A stretch of 64,000 nt of DNA from Promethearchaeota archaeon (GTDB lineage Archaea > Asgardarchaeota > Lokiarchaeia > Sigyniarchaeales > SOKP01). This document shows positions 7,400 through 38,723 of the stretch, piece after piece; position 1 is the stretch's first letter; each line of letters opens with the position of its first letter. The stretch is from positions 62,001 to 126,000 of the forward strand of contig JAHLWP010000005.1 in assembly GCA_019057865.1 (NCBI GenBank), given 5' to 3'. Under the pieces are notes generated by a model. The model worked only from the letters and a program-made list of their open reading frames with translations. It was not told the DNA's origin and did no database searches. Position numbers and translations under genes: made by a program.

Positions 7400-7446
7400 G
7401 AACTTCGGGTATATTAGAGATAGAACTATAAGAAGAGGTTTTATTA

Positions 7447-8730
7447 ATTTCAGAAAAAAAAAATAATAAAAAGCAAGAAATTTTTAAGCCTAAGTTCATG
7501 GAATGGGGCATAATTAATAAAAATAATTTTAAAGATAAAACTACATATGATATACCGATTAAGAGATGGGATCCTTTATCGACAGTAAGAATAAAATCTA
7601 AGGATTTTGGGGTTCGAAAAAAGCGTGAAAGGTATTATGGACATTATTCCTATTTAAGCCCTATTAGAGGGAAAAGACCTAAAGGTTATGATACCGTAGA
7701 AAAGAAAAGTGAATTTGAGCATTGTCCAAAAAAGATTTATGCAAGAGTAAAGGATGTGTTTATGGCAGTCACAGAAGGAAAACCTATTTATGATAATTGG
7801 GGTTATCAACTGGGTGATGGTTTCACTATAATTATAGCTGAAGATGATAAAAAGTGCGACAATCCTTTTTTAGATACTCCTCATCAAATTGAAAGAATTC
7901 CTAATTCTTGCAAAGCAATCACTTTAATTAATCGGTATCCTTCAATGGCTCGGATTATAGACCCTGAAATAGAAAAATGTATCACTGAAGAATTGCCTCC
8001 TCATCTAAAACTCGCGAGAGGGATAAACTTAGTAACTATTTCAAGAAAATTTTATCCTTCCTTATGTTTTAATTTAATTCCAGAAGAAATAATTGCTGGA
8101 ATTTTTTTATCTATGAAAACGGCAATCCTTTATTGCGTTCAAGAAGCAATAGAACGTGACTATTATGACATTCCAGTAAATCCTTTTTTTAATATAGGTA
8201 TGAAAGTAGGAGGCTCACAACCTCGCATACATAGTCAAGTATATATTGATTTGAATGGTGATGGTCATGGAAGTCGATTAGAAGGGTTTTTAAGGGCATT
8301 CAAAGAGATGGGTGAAAATTGTCATTTATGTGAAACGTCACATGGAGATACAGATCGTATTATTTTAAAAACTGAATTTTGGACTTTTTATACCACAGGA
8401 AGTCCAGTACGAAATTATCACATTCGATTTCATCCAAATGAGCACTTGAGAAGATTTTCACAATTGAAAATTAATCAAATAAATGATTTAGCAAAATCTT
8501 TAAAGATTATCTTTCAAGCAATTGACGATATAAAAATAGATAAAAATCGAAATCTTTTATTTAATAGTTGCCCTTTTGGTTATGATGCCGATTTTCATAT
8601 GTTTGGTGATATTATTCCACATGAAGTAATTGGCGGAGCAGAGATGGCAGATGATATGCGAGTTGCGAGAAAGTTGCCCCATATTGCTGCAGCTGAAATT
8701 AGAGAATCAATAATCAAGTATCTTAATTAA
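7447..8730 (+). CDS. GalT-like HIT-superfamily nucleotidyltransferase/phosphorylase
   Basis: About 427 residues with two HIT-type halves like galactose-1-phosphate uridylyltransferase and related sugar-nucleotide phosphorylases. Counted from the ATG at 7498, the first half ends in GGSQPRIHSQV (239-248), which aligns with GalT GGSxPHPHxQ: the nucleophilic His (245) and Gln are kept, but the first His is Arg. The second half has FHMFGDIIP and GGAEM. The reading frame extends 17 codons upstream of 7498 with coding-like sequence; ATT 7447 follows GAAGAGG at 8 nt spacing, so I take it as the start. It probably acts on a sugar phosphate together with the nucleotidyltransferase and glucan genes that follow. 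Confidence 0.7.
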   Translation: MSEKKNNKKQEIFKPKFMEWGIINKNNFKDKTTYDIPIKRWDPLSTVRIKSKDFGVRKKRERYYGHYSYLSPIRGKRPKGYDTVEKKSEFEHCPKKIYARVKDVFMAVTEGKPIYDNWGYQLGDGFTIIIAEDDKKCDNPFLDTPHQIERIPNSCKAITLINRYPSMARIIDPEIEKCITEELPPHLKLARGINLVTISRKFYPSLCFNLIPEEIIAGIFLSMKTAILYCVQEAIERDYYDIPVNPFFNIGMKVGGSQPRIHSQVYIDLNGDGHGSRLEGFLRAFKEMGENCHLCETSHGDTDRIILKTEFWTFYTTGSPVRNYHIRFHPNEHLRRFSQLKINQINDLAKSLKIIFQAIDDIKIDKNRNLLFNSCPFGYDADFHMFGDIIPHEVIGGAEMADDMRVARKLPHIAAAEIRESIIKYLN

Positions 8731-15273: not shown

Positions 15274-15711
15274 CTAATAATTAAGATTTACTTCCACATC
15301 AATTCCTTCTCTCACAGCTTGGGTAACAGTACAATATTGCTCAAACATTTTTCTACATTGATCTGCTCTTTTTCTGGTTTCTGGATCGTCAATTTTTACA
15401 TCAATATTGACATCAATTTTTTTAACCCTCCAAAATCCCTTTTGATTTCGAGCAATAGTTACTTCAGCTTCAGCTTTTAAATCATCTATAGTCAAATTTC
15501 TTTTCTTCAAACAAAAGATAAAACTAGCACTTAGACACCCCAATATAGCCATTCCTAACATTCTAGAGGGATTAGGACCTAACATATCCACCTCATCTTT
15601 ATGAGCTTCATCAATATAGCAATCTTTAACTTTCATTTCTCCAAGATCGCATTTAAATATCATTTCTTCTTCTAAAGTCAATCCTACTTTAGTTTTCAAT
15701 CCTTCTGTCAT
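15274..15711 (-). CDS. OsmC/Ohr family protein
   Basis: 145 residues with the OsmC fold. The two conserved redox cysteines are Cys59 (in MAILGCLSASF) and Cys127 (in EQYCTVTQAV). The family reduces organic hydroperoxides with a Cys pair or serves as a related envelope-stress protein; the precise subfamily is not resolved. It is the last gene of a minus-strand run that begins at the MEMO gene, 47 bp after the YdjM-like gene. Confidence 0.8.
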   Translation of the reverse strand: MTEGLKTKVGLTLEEEMIFKCDLGEMKVKDCYIDEAHKDEVDMLGPNPSRMLGMAILGCLSASFIFCLKKRNLTIDDLKAEAEVTIARNQKGFWRVKKIDVNIDVKIDDPETRKRADQCRKMFEQYCTVTQAVREGIDVEVNLNY

Positions 15712-15758: not shown

Positions 15759-16361
15759 TTATTTCAATATTTCTTGTGATTCATTTTTTTTTAAGTTAAA
15801 GTGGCGATATAAATGGAATAATATAAATGGAAAATAGATTAATATGAGTAAGATATATGGAAATGCTAATAATGTTATAGATAAAATCATTAGAATAAAA
15901 ATTAGAACCTCTATTACCATACAAATTTTATTGTTATAATATTTTTCATCAAAAAAAGAAGCAGGATTTTTATATTTACTCAAATATTCAGATATGTTCT
16001 CAAATTCTTCTTTTGAAATTAAAAATTTGGGACCAATCTGTTTTTTTTGAAAATAAAAAAAATTTGTACCCCAATCAAGGGTATCAAGTAATACATGAAT
16101 TGAATAACCGTAACCACTTATATATAAAGCTGGCCAATCTATTATATGCCCTAAAATTATAATAATTAAACTTGGAATTATGGAATGTGTGATTAACATT
16201 CGATGATTTTCATTTTTAGCATATTTGGAAAGAAAAACATCAAAATCACTAATAAATGCAAAAAAGACTATCATAGAGAATTCAAATAAATTAAAGTTAA
16301 AATAATAATTAAGAATGGATGCTAAGATTACTCCTATTCCAAAATGAGTATTAATATGGAT
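15759..16361 (-). CDS. YdjM/DUF457-like membrane-bound metal-dependent hydrolase, non-AUG start
   Basis: About 200 residues. The family pattern is present: an N-terminal TH motif (HINTHFGIGV), SDFDVF with acidic metal ligands, NHRMLITHS and HVLLDTLDW, with hydrophobic helices and a C-terminal membrane hairpin. The first ATG (16274) would remove the conserved THFGIG helix. The frame is open back to a TGA at 16368-16370 with only ATT, ATC and ATA codons available. ATC 16361 lies 6 nt after GGTGA (16368-16372), and ATT 16355 would give MNTH. It begins 17 bp after the PfkB stop. Confidence 0.6.
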   Translation of the reverse strand: MHINTHFGIGVILASILNYYFNFNLFEFSMIVFFAFISDFDVFLSKYAKNENHRMLITHSIIPSLIIIILGHIIDWPALYISGYGYSIHVLLDTLDWGTNFFYFQKKQIGPKFLISKEEFENISEYLSKYKNPASFFDEKYYNNKICMVIEVLIFILMILSITLLAFPYILLILIYFPFILFHLYRHFNLKKNESQEILK

Positions 16362-16378
16362 TAGAATTCACCATAATT

Positions 16379-24116: not shown

Positions 24117-24776
24117 TTAACTCGGAATATTTCCTTTTTTATAAATCAAATCCTTAGTTTTTTTTAACCGCACAAAACTCTCTCTATCTATTTCTTCTAA
24201 TTTTCCTTTTATATCTTTGATATCAAATTCAAGTTTTGGAATTATAATATTTTTTAAACCATTTAATCGACGGTTTATTTTTTTAAAATTCATTGCATTT
24301 TTTAGTAAATAATCTTCTTTTTCTGCTAAAAGAAAAAGCCTTTCGAAAAACTCTTTTAATAGAATAATTAAATCATCTAAAAAGTGGCTTGTATATTCAA
24401 ACGAATATGCAGGTAACTGTTGTTTATGCATCAAACTATAATCTATTTTAGGATTAAAAATTCCCAATTCTTTAACATATTTAATATTAATGACGGGTTT
24501 CATTTGGATTTTAGTAATACCACTAATTAGAATAAAATCTCGTTTACCCATTTCTTTATATGTTTGATTTAATTTAATCATAGATTTTCTAAAGATTGCT
24601 AAAAATTTATTTCTACTTCGGGTATAATCAAGCCATAATTTCCTTATTTGTTGTATTAATTGTTCTCTCTTATATTCTAAAAAATTCTCACCTTTTAAAG
24701 CAAAATTTAATTTTTTTTGCAATTTTATAAGATTTGTTTTTGTAAGTCTAATTTTTCTAAAGCTGATATTTAACAC
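24117..24776 (-). CDS. atpD: A-type ATP synthase subunit D
   Basis: 219 residues, the central rotor shaft. It is an antiparallel helical hairpin starting with the typical TKTNLIKLQKKLNFALKG(E)xxLEYKREQL and ending in helices with RRLNGLKNIIIPKLEFDIKDIKGKLEEIDRESFVRLKKTK. The start is GTG at 24776, directly abutting the atpB stop. Confidence 0.92.
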   Translation of the reverse strand: MLNISFRKIRLTKTNLIKLQKKLNFALKGENFLEYKREQLIQQIRKLWLDYTRSRNKFLAIFRKSMIKLNQTYKEMGKRDFILISGITKIQMKPVINIKYVKELGIFNPKIDYSLMHKQQLPAYSFEYTSHFLDDLIILLKEFFERLFLLAEKEDYLLKNAMNFKKINRRLNGLKNIIIPKLEFDIKDIKGKLEEIDRESFVRLKKTKDLIYKKGNIPS

Positions 24777-26165
24777 CTAATCAATATAATATTTATTCAT
24801 AAAATGTTCATGTATTCTGAATAACTGACTTCTTTGCAAATCAGATAAAATTTTCCATGCTATAGATAAAGTTTGGGAAAAATTACGATTTTCATTTCTT
24901 TGCTGATTTAAAAATTTCTGCTCAAAATTGTCTCCAAATTTCAAAAGAACTTTTTGCTCAAAATTAAGTCCTTCCTCGCCAACGATTGATATAAGATCTT
25001 TTACATCGAGATAATCAGAATAGGAAGATAATAATTGAGAGCTTACATCTGCGTGATCCTCTCTTGTTGTTTTTTTACCAATAGCATCCTTCATTAGCCT
25101 TGATATTGAAGCTAAAACTTCAATTGGAGGGTATATACCTTTCTTGTTTAAATTACGATTAAGAACTAACTGCCCCTCAGTTATATAACCCGTAGTATCA
25201 GGTACGGGGTGAGTTATCGAATCCGACGGCATTGTTAAAACTGGAATTTGCGTGATTGATCCTTTTTTCCCTTTTATTTTACCAGTTCTTTCATAAATTG
25301 AAGCGAGATCAGAATATAAATACCCGGGATATCCTTTTCTACTTGGTATTTCTTCTTTAGCAGAACCCAACTCTCTTAAAGCTTCTGCATAATTGGTTAT
25401 ATCAGTTAGAACAACAAGTACATGCATTTCTTTTTCAAAAGCAAAATATTCAGCTGTTGTTAAAGCAACCCTTGGAATAATTAATCTTTCAATAACAGGA
25501 TCGTCAGCAAAATTAATAAATGAAATAATATTTTGAATATTTCCACTCTCTTTAAAGCGATTTAAGAAAAAAATTGCTTCATCTTGAATGATTCCAATTC
25601 CACAAAAAATTATTAAGAAAGGTTCCTCTGTTAATACTTTAGCTTGAGATACGATTTGAGCAACTAATTTATTATGTGGTAATCCTTGACCACTAAATAT
25701 AGGAAGTTTTTGTCCCCTTATAAGTGTGAATAAACCATCTATTGCTGATATACCTGTCTGTATTACATCTGAAGGATATTCTCTTGCATATGGATTAATT
25801 GGAGTTCCATATATATCTTTTTCAATATCTGCTATTATATCAGATTCTTTTAGAGATTTTTTAGATAAATCAATTGGTTTACCTAATGAATCAAAGACAC
25901 GTCCAAACATATCAAAATCAGATATTTTAATTTTGAAAGAATCTTCTGTAAATAAAATATTGGAATTTTCTAAAGATAAACCTTTTGTATCTTCAAATAC
26001 TTCAACAACAATTATCTCTTCATTCATTTTTAAGACTTGACCATTACGGGTTGTTCCATCATCGCTATAGATTTTAACAATCTCACCATATTTTACATCA
26101 TGATTATTTGACAAAAATAATAAAGGTCCTATAATCTCCTGTATTTTTCTATAAATGATGCTCAT
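24777..26165 (-). CDS. atpB: A-type ATP synthase subunit B
   Basis: 462 residues, the regulatory (non-catalytic) nucleotide-binding subunit of the A1 hexamer. It shows the B-type features DVIQTGISAIDGLFTLIRGQKLPIFSGQGLPHNKL, where the P-loop is replaced, plus ITNYAEALRELGSAKEEIPSRKGYPGYLYSDLASIYERTG and the ITQIPVLTMPSDSITHPVPD segment. The ATG overlaps the atpA stop by one base, so translation is probably coupled. Confidence 0.95.
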   Translation of the reverse strand: MSIIYRKIQEIIGPLLFLSNNHDVKYGEIVKIYSDDGTTRNGQVLKMNEEIIVVEVFEDTKGLSLENSNILFTEDSFKIKISDFDMFGRVFDSLGKPIDLSKKSLKESDIIADIEKDIYGTPINPYAREYPSDVIQTGISAIDGLFTLIRGQKLPIFSGQGLPHNKLVAQIVSQAKVLTEEPFLIIFCGIGIIQDEAIFFLNRFKESGNIQNIISFINFADDPVIERLIIPRVALTTAEYFAFEKEMHVLVVLTDITNYAEALRELGSAKEEIPSRKGYPGYLYSDLASIYERTGKIKGKKGSITQIPVLTMPSDSITHPVPDTTGYITEGQLVLNRNLNKKGIYPPIEVLASISRLMKDAIGKKTTREDHADVSSQLLSSYSDYLDVKDLISIVGEEGLNFEQKVLLKFGDNFEQKFLNQQRNENRNFSQTLSIAWKILSDLQRSQLFRIHEHFMNKYYID

Positions 26166-29100
26166 TACCTCTTAATACCCCCTGATGTCAATTTTAATGA
26201 TTGAATTTCTTTAAGCAATTTATCTTTAATATTTAGAATCTGATCAAAATCACTATTAGGGACTGAATGACTAACTCTCAAAATATCATTTATAACCTCA
26301 AAGTTCTTTATATCCTCGATAAAAAAGCCTTGTTTTAAAAGTTCTTTTGTTTCATCATTCAGCAAAAGAATTAATTTTATTTGTCCTAGCAATTTTTTAA
26401 TATCGGTATAATTATCAATATTATCAAATGCGTTTTGAATAAGAAAGCCTTCTCTAATTAGTCTTGATATAAAAAGTATTAATCTCTGTTCTTCTGGTAA
26501 ATTTTCTTCTCCAATTAATTGAGTGATATTTTTTAAATCAACCTCTTTTGACAATATTTCATTAACACGATTTCTACATCCAAACCAATCAATATCAATC
26601 TCAGGCCAATCAATATCTCGCTCATAATACCATTCTGAGATGTAATCAGGATAATTGGAATATGAATCAAGCCAGTTTATTGCGGGATAATGTTTTGAAT
26701 AAGCTAAGTTTGCATCTAAAGCCCAGTACGCTTGGACAAAACGCTTAGTAGTTGCAGTTACTGGTTCGCTAAAATCTCCTGCAGGAGGAGATACAGAACC
26801 AATTATTGTTAAAGAGCCTAAATTGTCTTTTCCCGAAGCACTGTTTCCAATGGTTTTTACAACACCTGCTCTTTCATAAAAACTTGATAATTTAGAAGGT
26901 AAGTATGCAGGATAACCTTCTTCTGCTGGCATTTCTTCTAATAATCCTGAAATTTCTCTTAATGATTCTGCCCATCTTGAAGTACTATCTGCCAAAACAG
27001 CAACATTATATCCCATATCTCTGTAATATTCTGCCATTGTGACTCCAGAAAAAATACTTGCTTCACGAGCGGATACTGGCATATTAGAAGTATTAGCTAT
27101 AAGTATTATTCGCTCTAATAGAGGACGTCCACTTTTTGGATCAATTATTTTAGTAAATTCTTTTAAAACATCAGCCATTTCATTACCTCTTTCTCCACAT
27201 CCGACAAACACTATTACATCCGCATTACACCATTTAGCTAAAGACTGTTGAATTACTGTGTTATGCAATATAAAGGGTGTGATTCCTCCTATAAAATTAT
27301 GTAATCCCTCAACAGTTAAATCATATACATCTATTTCTTTATTTAAAGCCTCAATTTTAACTACTTTATCAAAATATACATTCTTGCATGTTTCTATTAA
27401 ATTTTTAATATGACATAATATTTCATTATCAAATTTTTGCTTATTTTTTATTACTAGATTATATATTCTACTAAGCATTGTGAGTGATATTTTTTCGTCG
27501 GATTCAATATAATTCCGAAGTCTTATCCCCTCTACTTTTCTAAATAAATTATAACCCTCACTATCTTTTCCCTGTGATTTCAATGTGATTAACACTTGTT
27601 TATCCACGGGGATTATATCTAATCCATCAAAATGATTTATATTTTTATCAGAATATTCATACAATGGTTTAATTTTATCATATATATACACATCTTCATT
27701 TTGCATAATATTTGCTAATTTTTCTGAATGTTTTCCTTCAATATAAAAATAATATGAATTGTTCCTTTTTTTCACCCTATATAGTATTCCAAGTCTTGAA
27801 TGTAAATAACTAAGATCACTATATAATTTCTTACTGACTGTTGAAAATCCAACAGTGTACTTATGAAACCATCCATCTCCGGCAAAATAACCATTAAAAA
27901 AATGAATTAAAATATTTTCTGGCGATTTTAATAAACAGTTTGGGATAGATATTTTGTAAGTTTTATTTTCTTTTGGAATTCCTAGGAAATATAGGAATTT
28001 AACTAGTGTTGTATTCGATATTCTCATATATGGAGTCTTGTCTTCATCTTTACCGTATTTAGCTGTTAAATCAAATATCCTCTTTGATAATAACTTAAAT
28101 CTTTCTAGTATCTGTTTCGAATTATTATAAAGATAAACCCCACCATATTCTCCCTTTATATGACCATCAGCTGTGAATAACCCTAACCATTCAGCCAATT
28201 CTTTTGTTATCTTTCTTGGAAATTTAAAAGATTTTGATTGTCTTTCAGATTTTAAAAGCCTAACATCAATTGGGGGAATTCTAGCTAGTTTAGTTAATTT
28301 TTGTAGAAATTGCAAAGTAGGTTTATTTTTTCTTTGATAATACCATCTTAAGACATCATAAGACATTTCAAGTTTTTCTGCTAATTCTTTTAGAGTCATT
28401 TTATTTTTCAATAAATTAAGGACACAAACCATTTGATTTAGAGCTTTTTTGTCGACCACACGAAGCGAAATATCAAAATCATATGGATTTAATACTATTT
28501 CATGCCCAACTATATTAATCTTTCTTGGAACGGTAATAAAATCTCCAATTTTTATACTTTTTGATTCCACTCCTTGAATTTTTTTACCATTAAAAGCAAA
28601 TAATTTATGAACTGGAGTTATCTCTATTTTTCTACCTGTCCTTGTTGTTATTCTCACTAGTTTATCAGTTTTGCCCCGATATATATGTGTGGCACTCCTT
28701 TTTTCAAAATTTATCCCGTTAAATGATAAAATGTCAATTTTTTTTCTCAATCTGATAAGGGTTTCTTCTTTATTATCTAACTCAATTATACTATCTTGTT
28801 TGCAATATCTTTTGAAAAGTTCCTTTATTTCTACAATCCCCCCATTAGATATAAGTATTGGTGTTTCTCCTGTAATACACTTTCCTGTTCCAAAACCTCC
28901 AGGCACAGCAACAGTACCACCCATTGCTATAGGAAACAATAAATCAATAGTTCTTATTCCTGTGTATAATGGTTGGTTGGGAGAAATTCTATTCAAATAA
29001 GGTCTATTTGTAGTTACTGGCCATTTCTGCATCATGTTTAATGCTACTTCATTCTTCCCATTCTTTAACCTGTAAATTTCATCAATGATAGTACAGTCCC

Positions 29101-29632
29101 CCTCATCTACTATATATGATAGAATACCAGAATGTCGAGGAGGAATCATTATTTTATGTTCAATTAATGGTGTTTCTTGTACAGTACCAACAACATCTCC
29201 ACCAGATAATTTCTCATTTAATTTACTTGTTGGTATAAAATGCCATTTTTTTTTCCTCGATAATGAAGGAATTTCAATACCTCTCTCCATAAAACCTAGA
29301 CCCTTTGAATTTATGAATATTTCTTTCAGTGGTCTTTGAATTCCATCAAAAATATTTGACAGTAGGCCAGGAGCTAATTCCATAGATAGTGGTTCATGAA
29401 GATTTATAACTTTTTCAAATAACTTTAAATTATATAAATTTTCAAAACATTGAGCAACAACATGATCTGAATGAATATGTATCACTTCACCGATAATACC
29501 ATGCGAAGCAATTTTTATTAAGTCATGAAGTTTTATTTGATGCTCCAATCCTTTTATTTCAATTAATGAACCATTGATCGCAGATATATAACCTATATCA
29601 CTATTCTTTAAATTTTTGTTAGATTCTGTCAT
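26165..29632 (-). CDS. atpA: A-type ATP synthase catalytic subunit A, interrupted by an intein
   Basis: A 1155-residue precursor. Residues 1-251 and 792-1155 together make a 615-residue catalytic A subunit, near normal length. The P-loop PGGFGTGK ends at Lys251 and its Thr is residue 792, so the intein splits the nucleotide-binding loop and must be spliced out for activity. C-extein hallmarks are CGERGNEMADVL, NTSNMPVSAREAS and ADSTSRWAESLREISGLLEEMPAEEGYP. The start overlaps atpE by 14 nt and the end overlaps atpB. Both extein frames are intact. Confidence 0.96.
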   Translation of the reverse strand: MTESNKNLKNSDIGYISAINGSLIEIKGLEHQIKLHDLIKIASHGIIGEVIHIHSDHVVAQCFENLYNLKLFEKVINLHEPLSMELAPGLLSNIFDGIQRPLKEIFINSKGLGFMERGIEIPSLSRKKKWHFIPTSKLNEKLSGGDVVGTVQETPLIEHKIMIPPRHSGILSYIVDEGDCTIIDEIYRLKNGKNEVALNMMQKWPVTTNRPYLNRISPNQPLYTGIRTIDLLFPIAMGGTVAVPGGFGTGKCITGETPILISNGGIVEIKELFKRYCKQDSIIELDNKEETLIRLRKKIDILSFNGINFEKRSATHIYRGKTDKLVRITTRTGRKIEITPVHKLFAFNGKKIQGVESKSIKIGDFITVPRKINIVGHEIVLNPYDFDISLRVVDKKALNQMVCVLNLLKNKMTLKELAEKLEMSYDVLRWYYQRKNKPTLQFLQKLTKLARIPPIDVRLLKSERQSKSFKFPRKITKELAEWLGLFTADGHIKGEYGGVYLYNNSKQILERFKLLSKRIFDLTAKYGKDEDKTPYMRISNTTLVKFLYFLGIPKENKTYKISIPNCLLKSPENILIHFFNGYFAGDGWFHKYTVGFSTVSKKLYSDLSYLHSRLGILYRVKKRNNSYYFYIEGKHSEKLANIMQNEDVYIYDKIKPLYEYSDKNINHFDGLDIIPVDKQVLITLKSQGKDSEGYNLFRKVEGIRLRNYIESDEKISLTMLSRIYNLVIKNKQKFDNEILCHIKNLIETCKNVYFDKVVKIEALNKEIDVYDLTVEGLHNFIGGITPFILHNTVIQQSLAKWCNADVIVFVGCGERGNEMADVLKEFTKIIDPKSGRPLLERIILIANTSNMPVSAREASIFSGVTMAEYYRDMGYNVAVLADSTSRWAESLREISGLLEEMPAEEGYPAYLPSKLSSFYERAGVVKTIGNSASGKDNLGSLTIIGSVSPPAGDFSEPVTATTKRFVQAYWALDANLAYSKHYPAINWLDSYSNYPDYISEWYYERDIDWPEIDIDWFGCRNRVNEILSKEVDLKNITQLIGEENLPEEQRLILFISRLIREGFLIQNAFDNIDNYTDIKKLLGQIKLILLLNDETKELLKQGFFIEDIKNFEVINDILRVSHSVPNSDFDQILNIKDKLLKEIQSLKLTSGGIKR
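27260..28879 (-). mobile_element. AtpA (VMA) intein with LAGLIDADG homing endonuclease
   Basis: 540 residues in frame inside atpA (precursor 252-791). Splicing residues are complete: Cys1 in CITGETPILI, block B ITRTGRKIEITPVH, and the C-terminal HN before Thr+1. The central part has two dodecapeptide motifs, LGLFTADGHI and FNGYFAGDGW, each with an acidic residue, so the endonuclease may be active. An HTH-like region (LKELAEKLEMSYDVLRWYYQRKNKP) precedes it. The insertion point, between Lys and Thr of the P-loop, is the VMA-b site known from Pyrococcus and Thermoplasma. Confidence 0.93.
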
Positions 29633-30341
29633 ATTCTCTTAAAAATTCATCAATATCAAGTTTTTTCTTTTGAATAAATTGCTCAAAATCTTTTTCTAAG
29701 TTTTTAACCTCAGATTCGCTGAAAACTCTTGAAAATTCTATTTCAATTAGAGAAGATTTTTTACTAATTAAATTATCAATTGAATAATCATAAAGAATAT
29801 CTTCATTTGGATTGATTACCTTGAACCCTCCAATAAAATCAGTAGTAGTTTTTGTAATCCCTACTTCATTCTTAAATATGTCCTCTATTTTAGCAAAATT
29901 TTCATTAAAATAATTAAAATCTGTGTTATTTAATAATATAGTAACTCTTGGTGGTTTATCGATAATAGGACTAACTTCTTTAATTAATAGAATTAAAGAA
30001 GTAATATAATAAGAGTACTCTTTATCTATTTTTTCTTTTATTAAGTTTTTCAAACTAATTTTTAATTCTTTGATTAATCTTTTCTTTAGATTTAAAATAC
30101 TTTCTTTTATATTTAAAAGTGTTTGGGATAATGCATTGTTTAAAAATTGATTATGTGTTTCAATAAATTGATCCCTTAATCTTTTAGAACTCTCAATATT
30201 TCTCTCAATATGTCTTTTTTTAATCTCTGCCTTTTGTAAAAGCATTTTCTGATTTATATCTTTAATTTCCTGTTGAGCTTTATTAATTAAATATAAACCT
30301 AATTTGCCAAATTGTTCTTTTAGTTCCTTATCTTCTGAAAT
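29619..30341 (-). CDS. atpE: A-type ATP synthase subunit E, probable AUU start
   Basis: Peripheral stalk subunit: a long N-terminal helix followed by a small alpha/beta domain (from about residue 135) with IGGFKVINPNEDILYDYSIDNLI, as in the family. The first ATG (30245) would leave a 110-bp gap after atpF in an otherwise overlapping operon. The frame is open to a TAA at 30345-30347, the intervening 32 codons read as amphipathic helix (SEDKELKEQFGKLG...), and ATT 30341 is the first usable codon. The alternative is initiation at ATG 30245 (208 residues, a usual family length). Confidence 0.75.
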   Translation of the reverse strand: MSEDKELKEQFGKLGLYLINKAQQEIKDINQKMLLQKAEIKKRHIERNIESSKRLRDQFIETHNQFLNNALSQTLLNIKESILNLKKRLIKELKISLKNLIKEKIDKEYSYYITSLILLIKEVSPIIDKPPRVTILLNNTDFNYFNENFAKIEDIFKNEVGITKTTTDFIGGFKVINPNEDILYDYSIDNLISKKSSLIEIEFSRVFSESEVKNLEKDFEQFIQKKKLDIDEFLREYDRI

Positions 30342-30355
30342 TTTTTATCATCTAT

Positions 30356-30676: not shown

Positions 30677-30981
30677 CAAAATCCTATCTTATCATTAATT
30701 AGATTTAATAATTTTTCATTATGCTTTTTAAATTTTATTTCAATATTATTGATAATTTTTCCCAATTCATCCTCGAGATTTTTGATTTCTTCTTTTACTG
30801 CTTCGGATAGATTTTTTAATGATGAATTGATAATTTCTCTTTTACTCTTCAATGATAATTCAATTTGCTTCTCTTGTTCTTCAGTTAAGATCTGAATTTC
30901 TTTTAAGCTTTCTTGTTTAGCTTTTTCAATTAAATTCTTGTAAATTTTCTCTATTTCCTCTGTCCATTTAAATATTTCCAT
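30676..30981 (-). CDS. A-type ATP synthase subunit G/H-like (peripheral stalk)
   Basis: 101 residues, predicted as one continuous helix rich in Glu and Lys (EKAKQESLKEIQILTEEQEKQIELSLKSKREI), as expected for the stalk partner of subunit E. Sequence alone is weak, since any coiled coil looks alike. The position inside the ATPase operon, with 14-nt overlap to atpC and direct overlap to atpF, makes the assignment likely. Confidence 0.72.
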   Translation of the reverse strand: MEIFKWTEEIEKIYKNLIEKAKQESLKEIQILTEEQEKQIELSLKSKREIINSSLKNLSEAVKEEIKNLEDELGKIINNIEIKFKKHNEKLLNLINDKIGF

Positions 30982-32053
30982 ATCTATCTTCTAATATCTC
31001 ATACTTACCATGTAATAATTTAATAATATTAGGCATTATATCAAAAATTATTTCTTTTTCTTTTTTTAATATTAATTCTAATATCCTATATATAGTCAAA
31101 TAACTAATATTATCAATCTTTACTTGGAATTTCTTAAAATAATAATTTTGGTATAACCCTTCAAGCGACCATTTTAAATGCCTTTCTTTCAACACTATTG
31201 GTATAAAAAGTATTTTTAATTCATCAATTTTTCTTAAATATTCTTCAAGCTTTACAAAAAATTCATTAGCGTTTTTTGAATTTAATAAAATTTTAATTTT
31301 CTCTTCATTAAGAAATAAATAATTCTCTATCAAAAATTGTGATAATAAGTTTTTATCTATTTTATTTCTAATGCCCCTATAAATCATATTTAGATTATAA
31401 ATTTCAGTTTTATAATCAATAAAAAGAGTTATCATCGCTTTTTCTTGTTTTTTGTAAATTATTTTGCTTTTTATTAAATCTTCATAGTATAACCGGTCTA
31501 AAAAGGCTTCTAAAACAAAAATTTCATCGTTTTTTCTAAAATAGAGAATTCCCTCTCGTATAGCCCTATAATATTTCGTATTCTTAAAAAAAAATTGAAT
31601 CTCATCTAAGGAGGTCATTTCGAGCAAATCATTTATAAAATCAGTTTTTTCTAAATAATCTTCAACTAAAAAATTGATATTTTTTTCTTTATCTCTTCTA
31701 CTCTTTCCAATTATCGATCCAATAATAATTTCTAAAATATTTTTAATCTCATACTTTAAAAGAAAAGCTTTTAAAAACTTTCTCATATGTTCAGGTGAAT
31801 AGTATAAAATTCTCCCAATTAATTTGATATAAATATGAAACAAAGCTTTTTCAATGTCTGAGATAGTTTCTTTTGTTATATTGATATCCGGGTAATAAGG
31901 TTTAATATAATCTATAAAATCTTTAATTTTATTTATTTCCCTTAATTTTCTTAATGAGTTATCATCCATTATTAATTGTTTTAATAATGTTATTTTAACA
32001 AAAAGATACTCATAGGTCGATAAAAATCGTATAACACTCGTAAAGAACACCAA
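30968..32053 (-). CDS. atpC: A-type ATP synthase subunit C
   Basis: 361 residues, all-helical, linking the central shaft to the membrane ring. The N-terminus (STYEYLFVKITLLKQLI) fits the YxYxxxRvrxxxxxLL opening of the family, and NILEIIIGSIIGKSRRDKE corresponds to the conserved central helix. Overall similarity is low and the assignment relies on operon position and fold pattern. A second ATG at 31969 would remove the conserved opening, so I keep 32053. The gap to atpK is 25 bp. Confidence 0.75.
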   Translation of the reverse strand: MVFFTSVIRFLSTYEYLFVKITLLKQLIMDDNSLRKLREINKIKDFIDYIKPYYPDINITKETISDIEKALFHIYIKLIGRILYYSPEHMRKFLKAFLLKYEIKNILEIIIGSIIGKSRRDKEKNINFLVEDYLEKTDFINDLLEMTSLDEIQFFFKNTKYYRAIREGILYFRKNDEIFVLEAFLDRLYYEDLIKSKIIYKKQEKAMITLFIDYKTEIYNLNMIYRGIRNKIDKNLLSQFLIENYLFLNEEKIKILLNSKNANEFFVKLEEYLRKIDELKILFIPIVLKERHLKWSLEGLYQNYYFKKFQVKIDNISYLTIYRILELILKKEKEIIFDIMPNIIKLLHGKYEILEDRYGNI

Positions 32054-33204: not shown

Positions 33205-33373
33205 ATTATTATAGTATCAAGTTTTTTATTTTTAAATATAATATATAAAAGAAACATTAAAAAAAATAGTTTTTATTTCTGAATTATATTAAATTTATAT
33301 AGATAATATTATAATATTCTATTATAAAGGTTATAATACAATCTAATAACTTCTTCATAAAAGGTAAAAAAAA

Positions 33374-34096
33374 ATACTGTCTGAAATTAGAAAAAGGATT
33401 AATACTTATAACCAAATAACAAATTTCAGTGAAATTGCACGTAGATATTTTATTAATAATTTTTACGATGGGGCATTAACAGTTTTAGGAATCATCTTAG
33501 GATTCTTTGTGGTAGTGCTTAAAAACCCTCATCAACCTACTATTCCTTCTTTATACATTGCATTACCAGGACTTGGAACCTCAATATCAATGTTTATTTC
33601 AGGAGTATCTGGATCTTATCTTTCTGAGGGAGCTGAACTAAGTAAAAAGCGTGCTGATTTAAATATGGCAATGGGTATAATCGAAAGTGAGACTATAGAA
33701 GAAGATCTTGATATAAAAAAGCAAGAAGAGGAATTAAAAAAAGCAATGTTAAGTAAAGTAAAAATAAAAGTTAATAAAAGTGAAGGTAAAAAAAGAAGAG
33801 TAAAAAAAACAATTCATGAAAAAGCTCAGAATTTCGCAGGGAAATTTGTTGCTTTAGTAAATGGTTTTGCACCACTTTTAGGAGGTTTAATTCCTTTAAT
33901 TCCCTTTGTATTTGTAAATAATGCAAATTTCATGACATTTATTTATTCATTTATAATTATATTCTTGTGTATTGTTTTATTAGGAATATTTTTGGGAAGA
34001 ATTTCAAATGTATCGATTATAAAAAATATTCTACAAATGTTATTTGCCTTTATAGCTACAATGATTGTTGTTATAATTTTCTTGGGGATCTTTTAG
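33374..34096 (+). CDS. VIT1/CCC1-like membrane protein, copy 1, non-AUG start
   Basis: About 240 residues. The N-terminus reads SEIARRYFINNFYDGALTVLGIILGFF, aligned with SEIARR-type DGALT openings of the second copy, so translation must begin well before the first GTG (33509). The frame is open from a TAA at 33365-33367, and only ATA 33374 or CTG 33377 can start it; AAAGGT (33360-33365) lies 8 nt before the ATA. Roughly five transmembrane helices flank a charged cytoplasmic loop. VIT/CCC1 relatives move Fe2+ or Mn2+; transport here is inferred. Confidence 0.65.
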   Translation: MLSEIRKRINTYNQITNFSEIARRYFINNFYDGALTVLGIILGFFVVVLKNPHQPTIPSLYIALPGLGTSISMFISGVSGSYLSEGAELSKKRADLNMAMGIIESETIEEDLDIKKQEEELKKAMLSKVKIKVNKSEGKKRRVKKTIHEKAQNFAGKFVALVNGFAPLLGGLIPLIPFVFVNNANFMTFIYSFIIIFLCIVLLGIFLGRISNVSIIKNILQMLFAFIATMIVVIIFLGIF

Positions 34097-38381: not shown

Positions 38382-38723
38382 ATAAAATATGATAAGCTTT
38401 TTGTGTATGGTACATTGCAGCATGGACAAAGCAGACATTACATTCTCCAACATTTGAAGTTTGAAAAAGCTGTATTACCAAAGTATAGAAAAGTTTCTCC
38501 CCCCTCCTTAGGATTTCCATTCATTATACGTGATGAAAACTCACAAGTGAATGGTGAAATTTATTACGGTCTAGATGATGAATTATTTCAATCATTAGAT
38601 CTTATTGAAGGAGAAGGTTCTTTATATCACAGAATTTTAGTAAAAGTGAAACCACAAAATAGACAGGAAATAGAATGCTTTGTTTATTATCCTGATAAAA
38701 GACTTATTAATAGTTATTTATAA
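38382..38723 (+). CDS. GGCT-like (gamma-glutamylcyclotransferase fold) protein, non-AUG start
   Basis: About 113 residues. The family begins with a strand KLFVYGTL that forms the substrate loop, and the same words appear here as DKLFVYGTLQHG. The glutamate near the active site is in DLIEGEGSLYHR. GTG 38403 lies inside that strand, so initiation must be upstream. After a TGA at 38364-38366 the only candidates are ATA codons, and ATA 38382 follows AAGGA (38372-38376) by 5 nt. The role may be gamma-glutamyl amine or peptide turnover, matching the adjacent GATase-like gene. Confidence 0.65.
   Translation: MKYDKLFVYGTLQHGQSRHYILQHLKFEKAVLPKYRKVSPPSLGFPFIIRDENSQVNGEIYYGLDDELFQSLDLIEGEGSLYHRILVKVKPQNRQEIECFVYYPDKRLINSYL

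Follow-up and report, generated by a model that had tools for sequence, protein, structure and literature searches.

Prokaryotic non-AUG start codons beyond GUG and UUG are regarded as isolated oddities. The bacterial infC gene, encoding IF3, has an AUU start through which IF3 limits its own synthesis (Butler et al. 1987, cited in PMC9845219), and eukaryotic eIF1 is autoregulated by the poor context of its AUG (Ivanov et al. 2010, cited in PMC6237735). AUU and CUG starts are rare in prokaryotes, where one of 61,358 ancestral AUG starts turned into AUU (Belinky et al. 2017, PMC5622118). In chloroplasts particular genes have conserved non-AUG starts that have been read as translational regulation (PMC9845219). 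We found no report of conserved near-cognate starts in Asgard archaea in the open-access literature.

We have analyzed a window of 64,000 nucleotides (the whole stretch of DNA under study) on contig C71 of a metagenome-assembled genome (MAG) of 87 contigs and 4.26 Mb, with a G+C content of 29.7%. Comparison with related genomes suggests that in this Lokiarchaeia lineage a small set of genes, including a GalT-like gene, is very probably translated from the near-cognate codons AUU, AUA, AUC and ACG. The 3′ end of 16S rRNA in the same genome is GGATCACCTCCT, and the Shine-Dalgarno (SD) consensus is therefore AGGAGGTGAT. A comparison of 55 gene families over 16 syntenic blocks brought to light the starts of atpD, atpC and an OsmC-like gene described below. 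A strong SD was counted where at least five nucleotides matched at the proper spacing. Strong SDs are scarce, being found at 31 of 327 ATG starts defined by orthologs. Over six families they precede 49/69 near-cognate rows compared with those 31/327 ATG rows, a comparison between phylogenetically related rows for which the p value is only indicative. Elements complementary to the 16S 3′ end stand at the proper spacing before the near-cognate starts, that of atpE being weak.

The GalT-like gene (CDS 7447-8730, forward strand) encodes a protein with a weak PDB match to galactose-1-phosphate uridylyltransferases. A sequence-only reading of this DNA had placed its start at ATT 7447. ATT is found there (7447-7449) in all 15 aligned genomes, each of which also has GAGG(T) ahead of it. 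The window has the SD GAGGT at 7435-7439 on the forward strand, 7 nt 5′ of the ATT and complementary to the 3′ end of 16S rRNA. At least five nucleotides of SD are present in 14/15 genomes and at least four in 15/15, and within the genus the order is GAGGT, then 6-8 nt, then ATT, so that the spacing is nearly constant. A TAA at 7429-7431 closes the frame upstream, and the next canonical codon is ATG 7498. The frame is open between the ATT and this internal ATG across the aligned genomes of the genus, with changes of length that are multiples of three. In L010 and L013 a TAG lies just 3′ of the SD, leaving the ATT as the sole plausible start there. With no usable ATG, GTG or TTG behind the SD, the AUU start is genuine as judged by comparative evidence. 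Translation might alternatively begin at the first downstream ATG, GTG or TTG in all these genes, the conservation upstream having some other cause. The internal ATG 7498 of the GalT-like gene would fit such a start, as it is universally conserved (KF-ATG-EWGII). In some other genera (G020 and G026) an ATG lies upstream of this internal ATG. The SD precedes the near-cognate codon, and the evidence from the genes described below makes a downstream start very improbable.

Three V-type ATPase subunit genes, all on the reverse strand, also have near-cognate starts. That of atpD (subunit D, PF01813; CDS 24117-24767) is ATC at 24765-24767, behind an SD AGGTG at 24774-24778. The aligned codon is ATA in seven, ATC in four and ATT in two of 13 genomes, and ATG in none. 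In the alignment to the NCBIfam model V_ATPase_subD, residue 4 counted from the ATC corresponds to model position 2, and a downstream start would remove the conserved N-terminus. atpE (subunit E, PF01991; CDS 29619-30341) has ATT at 30339-30341, preceded by a weak SD-like GATGAT at 30347-30352. The proposal that it starts at ATT 30341 is borne out by ATT in 11/13 genomes and ATA in the other two, and by G020, which has ATG TCA GAA in place of ATT TCA GAA. There is no canonical codon in frame ahead of the conserved core of atpE, which again argues against a downstream start. The remaining gene, atpC (subunit C, PF01992; CDS 30968-32041), has ACG at 32039-32041 behind an SD GGTG at 32048-32051. 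A wider search gave 29 loci in the same family, with ACG in 27, ATG in one and TTG in one, and the architecture is ACG AGT/AGC behind GGTGA. Within genus g2 the same codon is ATG in G033 and ACG in G019. The ACG of atpC and the ATC of atpD were not among the five starts listed by the sequence-only reading. In the same window, V/A-type ATPase subunit A (26165-29632, reverse strand; 1155 aa) contains an intein with LAGLIDADG domains (PF14890 and PF14528).

The retention of ACG in atpC can be compared with that at internal threonine codons. ACG makes up 5.5% of Thr codons in the window's own genome, and where a conserved internal Thr column has ACG in this genome it is kept in 12% of relatives. 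The 27/29 ACG of atpC is therefore unlike internal Thr, where ACA or ACT would be expected, and by this control the near-cognate start pattern exceeds chance.

The gene for aIF1 (SUI1, PF01253) is present in the same genome, outside the window. Its start codon is ATT in all 14 readable genomes of the genus, with no canonical codon in frame. The ATT directly precedes KDDDICPIC and follows a conserved leader, AAGGTTGTGA. As for atpE, the lack of any in-frame canonical codon ahead of the conserved core disfavors a downstream start. Across the rest of the family the codon is ATT, ATC or ATA. G022 has ATC; in the g7 species ATA is likely, within the same architecture, and a GTG lies upstream in 4/5. 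Three genomes from other families of the same class (G051, G053 and G054) have no canonical codons and ATA is again likely. More distant Asgard genomes have ATG (G041, G047 and G056), GTG (G055) or TTG (G052). Divergent copies of the gene in three g2 genomes have GAGGTGA, 8 nt and then ATT, which supports reading the aIF1 leader as an SD. Over 18 genomes this leader hardly changes, in contrast to the 9 nt that follow it, which are variable (L301:9876-10214 plus upstream); such conservation goes beyond the needs of an ordinary SD. A search for SUI1 gave no match in G002, G011, G012 and G015, some of which are 94-97% complete, reflecting either loss or an assembly gap.

In other families the start codon changes more freely. 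The YdjM-like gene (CDS 15759-16361, reverse strand) has ATC at 16359-16361 behind an SD GGTGA at 16368-16372. The expectation of a non-AUG start held for ATC 16361, where 8 of 14 genomes have ATG, four have ATA and two have ATC; the other candidate, ATT 16355, was rejected as the orthologs place the start at 16361. A strong SD is found in 5/6 near-cognate rows compared with 0/8 ATG rows (Fisher p = 0.003). The OsmC-like family, absent from the sequence-only reading, has ATG at 15709-15711 (reverse strand) in the window's genome. The aligned codon in 14 genomes is ATT in nine, behind AGGTGA, and ATG in three; G005 has TTG. The first VIT1 gene (CDS 33374-34096, forward strand; PF01988) starts at ATA 33374-33376, or at CTG 33377, behind an SD AAGGT at 33361-33365. 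As had been suggested, it is without a canonical start, here in its own genome and in G005 only, both reading AAGGT and then ATA CTG. Other relatives have an ATG nearby. For atpC (G033), atpE (G020), the YdjM-like gene and the OsmC-like gene, close relatives thus have ATG exactly at the near-cognate codon, which is not expected if translation began downstream.

These shifts would also fit a neutral relaxation throughout the lineage, in which any codon with a single mismatch suffices behind an SD and the starts drift in an AT-rich genome with no regulatory meaning. Codon identity moves freely in the YdjM-like, OsmC and VIT1 genes, and among ATA, ATC and ATT in atpD. However, the ATT of the GalT-like gene (15/15), the ACG of atpC (27/29) and the ATT of aIF1 (14/14) all stay one mutation short of AUG. 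Where a conserved Ile column has an internal ATT, an average of just 60% of relatives keep it; some such columns keep ATT fully, so that this control is suggestive. Purely neutral drift is possible, but we consider it unlikely. That several starts are kept across genus or family without drifting to AUG points instead to gene-specific retention.

The GGCT-like gene behaves differently. An ATA start at 38382-38384 (forward strand) had been proposed, but the codon is confined to the window's own genome and the relatives start at in-frame ATGs farther upstream. With no ortholog support this candidate was set aside. A frameshift, or a one-base indel beside an out-of-frame ATG, explains it equally well. 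The idea that assembly or read errors have removed ATG starts draws on this gene, and superficially on atpE, as both have an out-of-frame ATG beside runs of A where one indel restores ATG. Since the same codons recur in separately assembled MAGs from many species, miscalled reads are refuted for the conserved cases. The likelihood of such errors as a general explanation is negligible, and it survives for the GGCT-like gene alone. Of the five non-AUG starts of the sequence-only reading, the four others are upheld by their orthologs.

Near-cognate codons might also be converted to AUG by RNA editing, C-to-U on ACG or A-to-I on AUA. Editing of ACG to AUG is known in chloroplasts, as mentioned in PMC9845219. 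Yet AUU and AUC starts share the same architecture and no common editing converts them to AUG, so that this explanation is scarcely credible. To our knowledge editing of start codons is undescribed in archaea. Direct initiation at the near-cognate codons is the reading that we retain.

The genes concerned are few. A survey of 577 kb of the window's own genome, with 477 large ORFs, gave three SD-led candidates in addition to the six comparative cases, together about 2% of the ORFs. Two candidates lie behind GAGGTG, a response regulator with ATA (G000:C12:5117-5485, forward strand) and a ferredoxin with ATT (G000:C3:74126-74851, reverse strand); the third is an unknown gene with ATT. The rate is higher on C71 because three of the genes share one ATPase operon. 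A blind scan of the genome found an SD of at least six nucleotides before 4/736 near-cognate codons compared with 16/2996 other codons, hence no enrichment, in a test blunted by many matches in the latter class lying one codon ahead of an ATG. The trait is therefore gene-specific, and the case rests on comparison of orthologs. ATG is by far the commonest start, with near-cognate codons in a few per cent of genes or fewer. Globally relaxed initiation was accordingly dropped as a general claim, and the earlier suggestion of relaxed start selection does not fit starts that are mostly SD-led and in several cases conserved without drift to AUG. The second codon encodes Ser in 7/11 near-cognate genes (ATT-TCN, ACG-AGY and ATH-AGY; the set includes G000:C3:74126-74851 and G000:C15:4304-4792, both reverse strand) compared with 17-28% of ATG genes, which may reflect N-terminal processing or an effect of context.

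We propose that in most of the near-cognate genes the 30S subunit would be positioned by an SD, a variant of GAGGTGA lying roughly 6-9 nt before the start. Pairing of this SD with the anti-SD would hold the subunit long enough for the initiator tRNA to accept one codon mismatch, and the first residue would presumably be Met. atpE, with its weak SD-like element, would be an exception. An initiator tRNA with an altered anticodon was sought, but the initiator was not recognized among 28 tRNA matches in the window's own genome. Many of these matches (loci L282-L299) are longer than 100 nt or unseen by ARAGORN, suggesting introns at odd positions. In the YdjM-like, OsmC and VIT1 genes the start probably drifts between AUG and near-cognate codons. 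In the GalT-like gene, atpC, atpD, atpE and aIF1 many species keep a non-AUG codon. The likeliest reason is that the amount of product is set by the weakness of the start, and such weak starts would then be under selection. aIF1 is by known biochemistry the factor that destabilizes mismatched start complexes (PMC6237735). Conserved weak starts would report the level of aIF1, which may thereby control the near-cognate genes, and the AUU of its own gene would complete a feedback circuit like that of infC. By that analogy autoregulation of aIF1 is plausible. We suggest tentatively, as a possibility rather than an expectation, that aIF1 autoregulates through its AUU and that its level sets the near-cognate SD-led genes, including those for V-type ATPase subunits C, D and E.

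Probable near-cognate starts, ACG included, are conserved in core genes throughout one family of the Asgard archaea, which of all known organisms stand closest to the eukaryotes. Gene callers that accept only ATG, GTG or TTG would shorten or miss proteins such as atpE and aIF1. That the near-cognate genes are SD-led and the AUG genes SD-poor has a bearing on the trade-off between SD pairing and codon recognition. A non-AUG start in aIF1 would extend to archaea the self-limitation of fidelity factors by poor start sites. If the proposal is true, aIF1 would join IF3 and eIF1 as a third case, this one archaeal, of feedback on start-codon fidelity.

The starts described here belong to the same codon class as those in the set of Belinky et al. 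2017, but involve entire gene families, include ACG and are conserved across an archaeal family. The chloroplast starts are used by another ribosome and depend partly on RNA editing, whereas these are in an archaeon. Further parallels are with infC and eIF1. As with infC, a factor that safeguards fidelity by selecting against non-AUG codons would itself be encoded with an AUU start kept across species; IF3 is however unrelated to aIF1, which is the archaeal homolog of eIF1 and has another conserved leader, and autocontrol of aIF1 is suggested by analogy. With eukaryotic eIF1 the factor is homologous and its gene likewise has a poor initiation site, but in eukaryotes this is an AUG in poor context under scanning, and in aIF1 it appears to be a codon other than AUG that follows an SD-like leader.
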